Positions 1 to 46,775 of a stretch of DNA of 46,775 nt are shown here, piece by piece; the stretch's first letter is position 1; each line of letters begins with the position of its first letter. This DNA is from Falsigemmobacter faecalis (GTDB taxonomy: Bacteria > Pseudomonadota > Alphaproteobacteria > Rhodobacterales > Rhodobacteraceae). Below the pieces are notes generated by a model. The model did no database searches and was not told the origin of the DNA. It saw nothing but the letters and a program-made list of their open reading frames with translations. The stretch is from assembly GCF_003863335.1 (NCBI RefSeq), contig NZ_RRAZ01000029.1:1-46775 (forward strand), in the 5' to 3' direction. A program made the translations under genes and the position numbers.

Positions 1-104
1 AGGCCGTTCAGGGTCTTCAGCCGGCGGGCGTAGTTATAGGCGGCCATGTCGTCGCCGGGATGCGCCCTGAGTTGCTGATGATCCTGATAATGGAAGCGCT
101 TGAC

Positions 105-152
105 GTTCAGCAGGAAAACGATCCCCCGGCTCGGTTTCTGATCTGCTTCACC
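105..152 (-). repeat. Family 1 palindromic mini-element, in-frame copy
   Basis: 48-bp insert between TIKD and VKRFHY of the transposase. In ordinary IS481 proteins only about two residues separate these blocks. It aligns with the 589-639 copy: GATCAG near the head, an imperfect palindrome around GCCGGGGGATCG, and a degenerate tail. The length is 16 codons with no stop, so the frame is kept. This is the most diverged family 1 member. Confidence 0.55.
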
Positions 153-194
153 GTCTTTGATCGTTCGGTTCATCCGCTCGACCTGACCGTTTGT

Positions 195-280
195 CGGGAA
201 AACCAACCGCAGGGTATTTGATCCCCCGGATCAAATGCTTGCCCTGCTCATACCCGGACTGTTTTCTGATTCTCCAAACT
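195..280 (-). repeat. Nested composite of two family 1 mini-elements
   Basis: 86-bp insert between PW and TNGQVE of the transposase. The outer element has arms AAAAC and GTTTT and the tail TTTTCCCG. Its loop holds a complete inner element at 204-255 that begins GGGTATGAGCA, carries the palindrome CATTTGATCCGGGGGATCAA and ends CGGTTG. The same composite recurs on the plus strand at 46600-46694. The insert adds a TGA and shifts the frame. Confidence 0.75.
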
Positions 281-402
281 CCAGGGGTGGTTGGGCTTCG
301 TCAGCCGATGCTCGATACCATGCGCTTCGCAGATCATGTCGAAGCGCATGGGGCGGGACCAGACCTGGTTTCTGTTGCGCGGCTGATCTGCGAATTGGAT
401 CC

Positions 403-449
403 CCTTCGCCATTGGGCTTGAGCCAATGGCGCCTCAATGGCGCAGTCAG
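403..449 (-). repeat. Family 2 palindromic mini-element
   Basis: Insert of about 40 bp just after LTD in the transposase core. Its main palindrome is CGCCATTGG / CCAATGGCG with loop CTCAAG, preceded by GCCATTGAGG and ending GCGAAGG. It closely matches the element at 46064-46106 in an unrelated IS3-type gene. It causes a frameshift. The residues NG expected after LTD appear to have been lost with the insertion. Confidence 0.7.
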
Positions 450-588
450 TGAGGAGGGTGTGGATCCGATATGGCACGGCCTTGAGGAGATGTTCGAGGA
501 ACTCCCAGGCGGTTTTCCGATCGGCTTTGTCGACCAGTTGGGTCACCGCGAACCTGCTGGTTCTGTCAATGCCCACAAAGAGATACAG

Positions 589-639
589 CCAATCGTCGGG
601 CAAACGATCCCCTGGATCGTTTGCTGATCCTCCTCATAC
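589..639 (-). repeat. Family 1 palindromic mini-element
   Basis: 51-bp insert between VQTAE and LYLFVG of the transposase, where two residues normally stand. Features on the minus strand are head GTATGAGGAGGATCAG, perfect palindromic arms CAAACGATCC and GGATCGTTTG, and tail CCCGACGATTG. The length is 17 codons so the frame continues, but the second codon of the insert is TGA. Confidence 0.8.
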
Positions 640-1006
640 CTCCGCCGTTTGCACCTCGGCTATGTCGATGTGGAAGAAGCCGATCAGGGTGCGCTTGAAC
701 TTCTGCCGCCTGGGCTTATCGCCGCTGACATCCTCCAGCTTTGAGATCCCGTGGCGCTGCAAACACCGATGAAGTGCCGATCTGCTGAGATGCGGGATGC
801 CGGGCTGGAGGGCATAGAGACAGTCGTCCAGCGGAAGAAGAGTGTGGCGTCGGAAGGCCACCACAATAGCCTCTTCTCCCTCGGTCAGAACGGTCGAACG
901 GGGCTCCTTTGGCCCCGTTTTCTGATCTTCAACCGATGCTCGCTTATGCCATTTGGCGACTGTCCTGGAGTTTATTCCGAGCTCCCGGCTCAACTCCGCG
1001 AGCACT

Positions 1007-1044
1007 CAAGCCTGCCGTTGAGCCGATGGCGGGCAAGCCCTCAG
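1007..1044 (-). repeat. Possible family 2 mini-element, diverged
   Basis: Palindromic stretch (plus strand GCCTGCCGTTGAGCC then GATGGCGGGC) sitting in the N-terminal part of the transposase between AVRAAI and the GINSRT helix. It replaces the few residues expected there. It shares GCCATCGGCTCAA with family 2 but not the rest, so membership is uncertain. Confidence 0.35.
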
Positions 1045-1066
1045 TATTGCTGCTCTGACGGCGTGC

Positions 1067-1109
1067 CCTCGCCATGGTCACTCGAATCAGTGGCATGCCA
1101 TGGCTCGAT
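1067..1109 (-). repeat. Family 2 palindromic mini-element, diverged copy
   Basis: 43-bp insert between MGQIRHGSAT and AVRAAI of the transposase. On the minus strand it reads GAGCCATGGCATGCCA, then TTCGAG, then ATGGCGAGG. This lines up with GAGCCATCGAGGC, TTCGAG and ATGGCGAAG of the copy at 46064-46106. Confidence 0.55.
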
Positions 1110-1432
1110 CGTGGCGCTTCCATGACGAATTTGTCCCATAGGACATCCTTCCATTCCCTTGAAAAGATCTCACCATCAAACCGTGGGATCAAACACCTAA
1201 GGTTTCCCCCCAGACCACCTGACACCCCCCGTATCGCATGATCGCTGGCGGGCAGGCCCGTTTCATTGCAACAGCACGAGGAAAGCCGGATCCTTCGGGC
1301 CGCCCAATCCCCGGGGCCCCTCGGGATGCGCCAAACCCCGCCTGCCTCGCTGCGCCAGCGCGGGACTCAGTTGATTTTCAGTCGCGCTGTCCGCAGTCTT
1401 TCCCTGACGACATCTGACCGGAGGAGGGCAGG

Positions 1433-46060: not shown

Positions 46061-46345
46061 CAGCCTTCGCCATCGGGCTCGAACCGATGGCGCCTCGATG
46101 GCTCAGTCCCCAATTTTGGCGTGCAGCGACCGGACCGTCTCTTCATCCACTTCCGCAACGGGCTTTCTGCCGCCACGCTCGAAAATATCCGCAGCCCCGT
46201 CCAGCAGCGCCTTCTTCCATTGATGGATCATCGTCGGGTGCACGCCGTATTCGGCCGCCAACTCAGACACAATGCGCTCGCCCTTCACGGCCTCAAGCGC
46301 CACGCGTGCCTTGAAGCCCGCGTCATGGTTCCTGCGTTTCCGCAT
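46061..46345 (-). pseudogene. IS3-family OrfA, interrupted at its C-terminus
   Basis: From the ATG at 46345: MRKRRNHDAGFKARVALEAV, ELAAEYGVHPTMIHQWKK, VDEETVRSLHAKIG, a helix-turn-helix plus coiled coil. The usual continuation (AVANDFLSRKL-like) is split off by the family 2 insert at 46064-46106. Without the insert it would read through to the normal end. Confidence 0.8.
46064..46106 (-). repeat. Family 2 palindromic mini-element
   Basis: Insert near the end of the IS3 orfA. On the minus strand it reads GAGCCATCGAGGC, then GCCATCGG-TTCGAG-CCCGATGGC, then GAAG. It closely matches 403-449 in the IS481 gene. It adds an immediate TGA and a frameshift. Confidence 0.7.
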
Positions 46346-46475: not shown

Positions 46476-46526
46476 GTATGAGCCGGGCCAGAAATTGATC
46501 CAGTGGATCAATTTCCCGGCGATTGA
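46476..46526 (+). repeat. Family 1 palindromic mini-element in IS leader
   Basis: 51 bp: head GTATGAGCCGGGCCAG, palindrome AAATTGATCC-AGT-GGATCAATTT, tail CCCGGCGATTGA. It lies in the untranslated leader of the IS, upstream of orfA, so the family is not confined to coding sequence. Confidence 0.8.
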
Positions 46527-46557
46527 GCAGCATGCTGCTGCGAGTGAGGAGAAGACC

Positions 46558-46775
46558 ATGGCAAGACGACCGCGCCGGAACCACAGCCCGGCTTTCAAGG
46601 TATGAGGAGGATCAGAAAACAGTCCGGGTATGAGCATGACAAGCATTTGATCTGGGGGATCAAATGCCCTGCGATTGGTTTTCCCGACGATTGAGTTGCG
46701 GTAGCCGCGATCAAGGGCGAGAAGGCGCTGATCGAGTTGGCGCAGGAGTTCGACGTTCATCCGAACCAGATCAAG
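46558..46775 (+). pseudogene. IS3-family OrfA fragment with composite insert
   Basis: MARRPRRNHSPAFK is read from the ATG at 46558 and interrupted by a 95-bp insert at 46600-46694. It then continues with VAVAAIKGEKALIELAQEF and DVHPNQIK to the window edge. The two parts are the usual IS3/ISL3-like OrfA start. The insert carries TGA stops. Confidence 0.8.
46600..46694 (+). repeat. Nested composite of two family 1 mini-elements
   Basis: 95 bp. The outer element runs from GTATGAGGAGGATCAGAAAAC to GTTTTCCCGACGATTGA. Inside its loop at 46626-46677 is a second copy: GGGTATGAGCATGACAAG, palindrome CATTTGATC-TGGG-GGATCAAATG, tail CCCTGCGATTG. It is almost identical to the composite on the opposite strand at 195-280. 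Confidence 0.8.

Follow-up and report, generated by a model that had tools for sequence, protein, structure and literature searches.

A candidate non-autonomous hairpin mini-element of Rhodobacterales residing in insertion sequence genes

Bacterial genomes frequently contain palindromic repeats, whose mode of spread is still poorly understood. CGTC-tagged REPs of Alphaproteobacteria were reported without a dedicated transposase and, as far as the available text of that report goes, with links to transposase genes that are few and fortuitous (Di Nocera 2013, PMC3733652). Rickettsia palindromic elements (RPE) are given a size of 95–150 bp in the available parts of PMC2267715 and PMC10969869. The Bru-RS of Brucella represents, according to excerpts of PMC2266754, PMC3163539 and PMC2267715, a palindromic repeat of 103–105 bp and a reported insertion hot spot of IS711, with one example located between two genes. 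REPs were also described as targets of IS, which, in the accessible text of PMC1525189, insert into palindromes; in the case presented here, palindromes are found inside IS genes.

The repeat analyzed in this study, referred to as Family 1, resembles the CGTC REPs in being a small alphaproteobacterial hairpin apparently lacking a transposase of its own, and the reverse complement of its main subtype reads CGTC before the stem. In contrast to those REPs, as characterized in the available text, its stem does not start with AT, its tail is not CCA (CGTCGGGAAAAC...) and further subtypes read CGCC or CGCA. Like RPE, it is a small palindrome within genes with one frame open; unlike RPE, as far as the excerpts describe them, it measures about 50 bp, is hosted by IS instead of metabolic genes and often breaks the reading frame (17/61 insertions with a net gain of 43 bp). 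MITEs are likewise short, palindromic, non-autonomous and scattered, but Family 1 shows no target duplication, about 4–5 bp are lost and the net gain is smaller than the element. The initial annotation had compared the repeat to REP and RPE units, which was right in kind, whereas membership is not supported: the own genome encodes no Y1 transposase, an AT-starting CGTC stem is absent, and about 50 bp stand against 95–150 bp. A description of the element was not recognized in the literature covered, most subscription journals and bioRxiv lying outside its scope, and the terms ‘palindrom’ and ‘hairpin’ are absent from the main text of a Paracoccus mobilome paper (PMC3281130).

The window, i.e., the whole stretch of 46,775 bp analyzed here, corresponds to one complete contig (G000:C24) of the Falsigemmobacter faecalis draft genome, and the repeat is present at both of its ends (Table 1). 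All five places listed in the initial annotation were found again, four as clear copies and one as a divergent copy, and nested copies interrupt two outer elements. A covariance model (R1) built from the four complete window copies returned the same five, four clear and one divergent, in a full-model scan of the window (E ≤ 5.3e-6). Among 11 further matches up to E 10, four represent the same hairpins on the opposite strand and seven have E ≥ 0.096. Regarding IS481 site 2, unsplit outer hairpins were detected at G000:C49:95966 and C57:9570.

Table 1. Family 1 copies and their host genes in the window.
Feature	Position	Strand	Basis
Divergent copy, IS481 transposase site 3, between ATCAAAGAC and GTCAAGCGC	105..152	-	R1 31.1 bits; absent from IS481 copies L069/L070
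Outer element, 3' part, IS481 site 2, split by inner copy 204-253	189..203	-	alignment
Inner nested copy, CATTTGATCC subtype, complete	204..253	-	75.8 bits
Outer element, 5' part, IS481 site 2	254..279	-	alignment
Complete copy, GTATGAG..GATTG type, IS481 site 1 (VQTAE..LYLFVGID)	590..639	-	73.6 bits; L069/L070 empty
Complete copy, IS3-family leader, outer stem GCCGGG/CCCGGC	46476..46525	+	76.6 bits; L067/L068/L071 empty
Outer element, 5' part, IS3 orfA, after TTCAAG	46600..46627	+	alignment
Inner nested copy, CATTTGATCC subtype, complete	46628..46677	+	74.6 bits
Outer element, 3' part, IS3 orfA	46678..46693	+	alignment
Host: decayed IS481-family transposase gene with three Family 1 sites and other palindromic inserts	1..1140	-	L069/L070 alignment; IS481-annotated plasmid matches
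Host: IS3-family element, leader and orfA start, cut by contig end	46400..46775	+	comparison

The search of the full genome and of relatives suggested by the initial annotation revealed many further copies. In the own genome, R1 yielded at least 72 matches at E ≤ 1, eight of them being the opposite strand of listed copies, which leaves at least 64 distinct places; this number is a lower bound with 150 of 1937 first-look candidates scored, and the weakest places, at about 19–25 bits, may include false ones. At E ≤ 0.001 and with stricter filters, 54 matches were obtained. These places across the genome exclude a chance occurrence and dismiss the possibility that no genomic copies exist beyond the window. 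Many own-genome copies in this draft lie near contig ends, the window ends included, so that the assembly probably breaks at the repeats and the copy number may be underestimated.

A looser pattern allowing two mismatches matched 49 of 394 genomes of the family and 4 of 385 genomes of the class (G000 and G103 from the same family, G220 and G349 from outside), and the reversed-pattern controls gave 0 in both cases. Of the genomes listed, the own genome had the most matches (23) with this pattern. Applying R1 at E ≤ 0.001, 13 of 61 genomes, the own included, were matched, with none of the 24 from other families among them. By eye, the G349 match (L208) is situated in a gene of IS5 type and the one in G220 (L207) is intergenic. 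Within the genus, genome G004 carries the element at 1048–1099 (locus L065), and F. intermedius showed a match at 1053–1091 of NZ_SBLC01000100.1. Furthermore, 33 plasmid records contain the element, 20 of them from Paracoccus, and two Rhizobiaceae plasmid copies were placed by eye in an IS3 gene and an IS481 gene. Phage records gave no element match, and three stretches of IMG/VR matched.

Rhodobacterales form a large bacterial order with members in the sea and in soil. In order to sample by sequence alone, a genome collection was scanned with AGGRTCAGNAAACNNTCCNGNGGANNGTTTNCCCGACGA, resulting in at least 113 stretches; 80 titles among the matches listed bear Rhodobacterales names or denote MAGs whose names go no further than Rhodobacteraceae, Rhodobacterales, Paracoccaceae or Alphaproteobacteria. 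The 113 loci among the matches listed provided 114 matches, of which 88 were unique by flank and had enough usable flank. These correspond to 54 host positions by a similarity cut-off that left some same-position pairs apart, and to 50 after merging homologous flanks in register, where L201 probably still joins L161/L184. A position common to several genera can reflect common descent instead of repeated insertion.

The core is 44 bp long and follows the plan TGAGGAGGATCAG-AAAACNNTCC-GGG-GGANNGTTTT-CCCGACGA, whereby the full unit comprises 47–50 bp. Better members of the own-genome places have in common GAGGAGGATCAG, a hairpin with arms varying as pairs, and CCCGACGA. Heads within the family are GTATGAGG, GGTGAGG, GACTGAGG and others. 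The motifs originally assigned to the repeat were retained in part. A GATCC..GGATC palindrome occurs but is one arm variant among several (AGTCC, GCTCC, GGTCC, CATTTGATCC), the head GTATGAG was observed in some copies but is missing at 105–152 and in the outer element at 189–279, and instead of the supposed tail CCCGnCGATTG the inner copies end in CCCTGCGRTTG. The GTAG tetranucleotide at the hairpin foot, a trait of RAYT-type REPs, was not found among the family heads.

The base before the core (N1) and the second base after it (M2) are Watson-Crick complementary at 72 of the 88 unique sites among the matches listed (shuffle mean 24.9, maximum 39 in 5000 shuffles) and, with one site counted per position, at 40 of 50 among these matches (mean 13.8, maximum 25). 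Five neighboring offsets tried for comparable pairing were near chance, and inverted flanks beyond N1/M2 were not detected among the matches listed (N2M3 at 3/88 sites vs. 5.9 expected). Moreover, N1 and M2 can both be changed at the same host position, e.g., in L159 vs. L166 and in L171 vs. L186.

Arm pairs left free in the search pattern were Watson-Crick in 244 of 264 cases among the matches listed, the others being G.T (7), A.C (5) or different mismatches (8). In 36 distinct own-genome copies, 361 Watson-Crick, 11 G.T, 10 A.C and 14 other pairs were counted. At the outermost pair, 8 G.T and 0 A.C were found, mostly in the TGGAGG subtype. Since RNA selection on one strand would favor G.T, the similar numbers of G.T and A.C suggest that the hairpin appears to be maintained as DNA, through function or through copying between arms. 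Folding as single-stranded DNA resulted in z-scores of -5.9, -2.5 and -4.1 for three complete window copies. Selection at the RNA level, as a candidate explanation, found no support, the arm mismatches lacking an excess of G.T over A.C (7 vs. 5).

The initial annotation regarded the repeat as a separate entity inserted into unrelated IS genes, and this is corroborated by uninterrupted copies without the element as well as by about 50 positions in many IS families. On plasmids of Ketogulonicigenium, Paracoccus aminophilus and P. liaowanqingii, the IS3 element of the window is found free of both inserts, and on plasmids of Marinibacterium and strain SC52 the IS481 gene lacks all three Family 1 inserts; more empty sites were read in IS3, IS110, IS66 and IS5. 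The chance that the hairpin is a fixed part of IS families, e.g., a regulatory one carried natively by intact copies, is close to nil: positions common to several genera would agree with it, but uninterrupted IS copies lack the hairpin, which moreover recurs across unrelated IS families, at least eight in number.

Comparison of occupied and empty sites, likewise proposed at the outset, revealed that about 4–5 host bp are lost and none are duplicated. At IS481 site 1, GCAA located between two Gs was lost; the corresponding losses were CATC in IS110 and CGAA in IS3 orfA. A nested copy stands in place of GGACT in the arm of the outer hairpin, and at the IS5 site in C67 a poly-A run hides whether host bases were lost. 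For 61 of the 88 listed sites, an uninterrupted relative with a flank identity of at least 72% was present among the loci. The net gain amounted to 42 bp (15 sites), 43 bp (17) or 45 bp (17) at 49 of these 61 sites; the other 12 showed 41, 44, 46 and 36 bp (two each) or 33, 39, 47 and 48 bp (one each), and the low gains of 33, 36, 36 and 39 bp, which look like local-repeat alignments or a poor relative, were kept in the counts. For L174, the relative L057 gives a net gain of 42 bp. A search with concatenated flanks, scoring three candidates per genome, returned few empty sites.

Gains largely correspond to the type of ends: xGT..AC ends go with 42 bp, CT..AG, TGG..C and AT..AT ends mostly with 43 bp, and TAT..TTG and TGT..TCG ends with 45 bp, the L159 sites (CT..AG, 42 bp) being an exception. 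These classes imply that the inserted unit, 47 bp (N1-core-M1M2) or 49 bp long, replaces about 4–5 bp without duplication, with boundaries uncertain by about 1 bp because the empty relatives are 73–96% identical in the flanks. The target exhibits a weak bias and no consensus; in 45 of the 54 clusters among the matches listed, the core is followed by G at the third position, and in one end class that base may be part of the element.

An enzyme-free origin, in which replication template switching copies the hairpin via micro-homology and keeps its arms complementary, is rather unlikely in view of this footprint. Micro-homology should give a broad spread of deletions, whereas gains are clustered at 42, 43 and 45 bp and full units end at fixed bases. 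What such a process would explain are the concerted changes of the arms with equally rare G.T and A.C mismatches, the junction bases partly common with the host (GTA at 46476–46478), the recombinants described below, and the finding of no Y1 transposase in the own genome, where other transposase types are present as hosts and possible mobilizers.

All 88 unique sites among the matches listed were assigned to IS genes and none outside IS in the sample. At least eight families are hit, namely IS5 (several groups), IS3, IS256, IS481, IS66, IS110, IS21 and IS630, the names being derived partly from Pfam names and recall. At 70 of the 88 sites, flanking ORFs match annotated transposases or segments with Pfam transposase matches, one of the ten Pfam-scanned segments (DUF772, L167) lying just under the cut-off. 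For 14 of the remaining 18, Pfam gave a match to IS proteins or domains of IS type (Transposase_mut, IstB_IS21, IS66 TnpB and C-terminal element, HTH_Tnp_1, rve_3), including L145 just under the cut-off and L096, where a general helix-turn-helix predominates. L192 falls into one cluster with L106, an IstB site, and L171 and L092 occupy the same positions as assigned sites. The L122 and L092 segments gave no Pfam match, L122 being read as IS66 by eye. An extragenic location, as is typical of RAYT-type REPs, was found at none of the 88 listed sites; an intergenic variant exists.

Residence in IS could also reflect survivorship, i.e., a REP-like hairpin would insert anywhere and be seen in IS, where copies are multiplied, exchanged between species and left unpurged. 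This is conceivable, though less likely than not. It is in line with repeated IS copies carrying the element, the recurrence of the same positions in several genera and the existence of intergenic relatives. However, intergenic DNA is more plentiful than IS genes, and still 88/88 listed sites are in IS genes; moreover, multiplying one insertion would not add to the number of positions, of which about 50 were told apart.

Regarding orientation, 39 clusters with known direction among the matches listed comprise 24 in coding sense and 15 antisense. The reading as an RPE-like peptide-coding element, under selection for leaving the host transposase translatable (frame YEEDQKTIRGIVFPTI), is very improbable in this respect: antisense orientation at 15 of 39 oriented positions, a frame-shifting net gain of 43 bp (17/61), the stop in GTA TGA in the host frame of window sites 590 and 46600 and the symmetry of mismatches, which argues against RNA selection, all speak against it. 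In-frame open insertions do exist, namely in an IS110 of Paracoccus aminovorans, where an annotated transposase of 358 residues reads straight through an element copy, in an IS5-type gene (L062) and, by reading, at IS481 sites 2 and 3 and in IS66. Translational bypassing of the T4 gene 60 or yeast mitochondrial ‘byp’ type was also thought of owing to the size of the element.

The IS481 copies of C1, C24 and C71 have three sites and the nested copy in common, and two compared pairs of them are 88.6% identical over 1.25 and 1.39 kb. In G103, four copies share 770 bp at 98–99% around the element, two of them 1.48 kb, and the repeated unit contains an IS3-type reading frame by eye. Such repeated IS copies with the same inserts indicate that the element is carried along with its IS. 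A long minus-strand ORF at about 600–1320 of L209 (G103), resembling part of a Cas9-type nuclease by eye, lies beside the element-bearing IS in this unit. Furthermore, some own-genome copies combine the left flank of one site with the right flank of another (trimmed-reference coordinates). The junction IS481 573/899 was observed three times (C13:14258, C82:49649, C32:24326), and further junctions are IS481 260/579 (C52:6974), IS3/IS481 (C42:21140) and IS481/IS5 (C19). Elements therefore look like recombination points at which IS pieces are deleted or fused.

Replacement insertion, IS habitat, paired structure, nesting, recombination and carriage by IS are supported by sequence comparison. Family 1 is probably a non-autonomous hairpin mini-element of Rhodobacterales that inserts into IS genes, is mobilized in trans and is a relative of alphaproteobacterial palindromic repeats. 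A putative enzyme supplied in trans would recognize the folded DNA hairpin and exchange it for a 4–5 bp target stretch; cutting with a stagger of 4–5 bp, followed by loss of the overhangs and uptake of the hairpin, would leave the observed footprint. An intergenic palindromic repeat with kinship to the CI153 hairpin of Brucella may be its ancestor or its sister. Mobilization by RAYT/TnpA-REP was rejected for the own genome, in which 0 Y1 HUH transposases (PF01797) were detected; controls were positive in 6 of 14.

The IS habitat may result from targeted insertion, or from insertions being tolerated and multiplied only there; with about 50 different positions counted in IS genes and no site elsewhere in the sample, targeting or very strong filtering is favored. 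A more far-reaching proposal, tentative and on balance doubtful, is that of an IS hyperparasite, i.e., a transposase-less DNA hairpin whose machinery would recognize many IS families by their genes or transposition intermediates and swap it for 4–5 bp of target. If targeting is true, Family 1 would represent a natural agent specifically breaking jumping genes. Duplication-free insertion by exchanging a hairpin for 4–5 bp was not found described for any bacterial mini-element in literature of the scope given above. With about 50 insertion positions, for many of which an empty counterpart exists, together with a sharp footprint of 4–5 bp loss and a strict habitat, the family makes hairpin movement directly testable.

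Regarding catalogued relatives, no Rfam family exceeded its gathering score over an element; the initial annotation had recognized no named family. The closest catalogued sequence found is RF02604 BASRCI153 (Brucella sRNA CI153), which has the same hairpin plan. The reverse complement of the element aligns to its positions 28–67 of 214, covering the hairpin from end to end, with its GGG/CCC foot and its CTGATC side; the score of 24–29.5 bits is far below the gathering score of 137 of this 214 nt model. In a sample of 240 genomes of the class, the RF02604 model found three at E ≤ 0.01, and its cut-off was exceeded in none of them. A hairpin of BASRCI153 type in Pseudochrobactrum (Brucellaceae, L234) is located between two annotated genes. 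BASRCI153 is possibly part of the Bru-RS repeats, whose unit of about 103–105 bp, as described in the excerpts available, differs from the 47–50 bp element in IS genes. A variant with a GGCGG..CCGCC foot (CCCGCCGA variant) was detected in 8 of 198 family genomes at nine places, six of which lie outside IS and three in or just before IS genes by eye. These similarities point to a broader group of palindromes in Alphaproteobacteria, within which the form living in IS genes would be a specialized branch. Intergenic hairpins with the GGCGG/CCGCC foot were noted in L218, L219, L221, L223, L224 and L066. The units in L219 and L223 begin at the stop codon of the preceding ORF, which provides their first TGA; a second palindrome, rich in GC, seems to come next.

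Other palindromes were also encountered in IS genes. Short perfect palindromes without the asymmetric foot of the family occur in IS3-type genes (G000:C63:1416-1442, C48:13561, C17:61054); the one at C48:13561 replaces GGATC and its outer pairing is extended. The IS481 gene of the window carries a second palindromic insert at about 402–445 (minus strand), CGCCATTG..GGCTCAAGCC..CAATGGCG, which is absent from L069/L070 and accompanied by about 5–6 missing host bases; a similar sequence is found at about 46063–46108. In the same IS481 copy, an insert-like GAGGGCTTGCCCGCC.. stretch at about 1010–1045 and a CCATGG..CCATGG palindrome at about 1065–1115 (both minus strand) are not in uninterrupted relatives. 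A further hairpin with a CAGTCCACTGGACTG core is located near the 3' end of the IS481 gene of L069 (Marinibacterium plasmid), where about 5 bp are missing in comparison to L070, and the own-genome IS481 copy in C71 (~158,300) reads YILRRG at its place.
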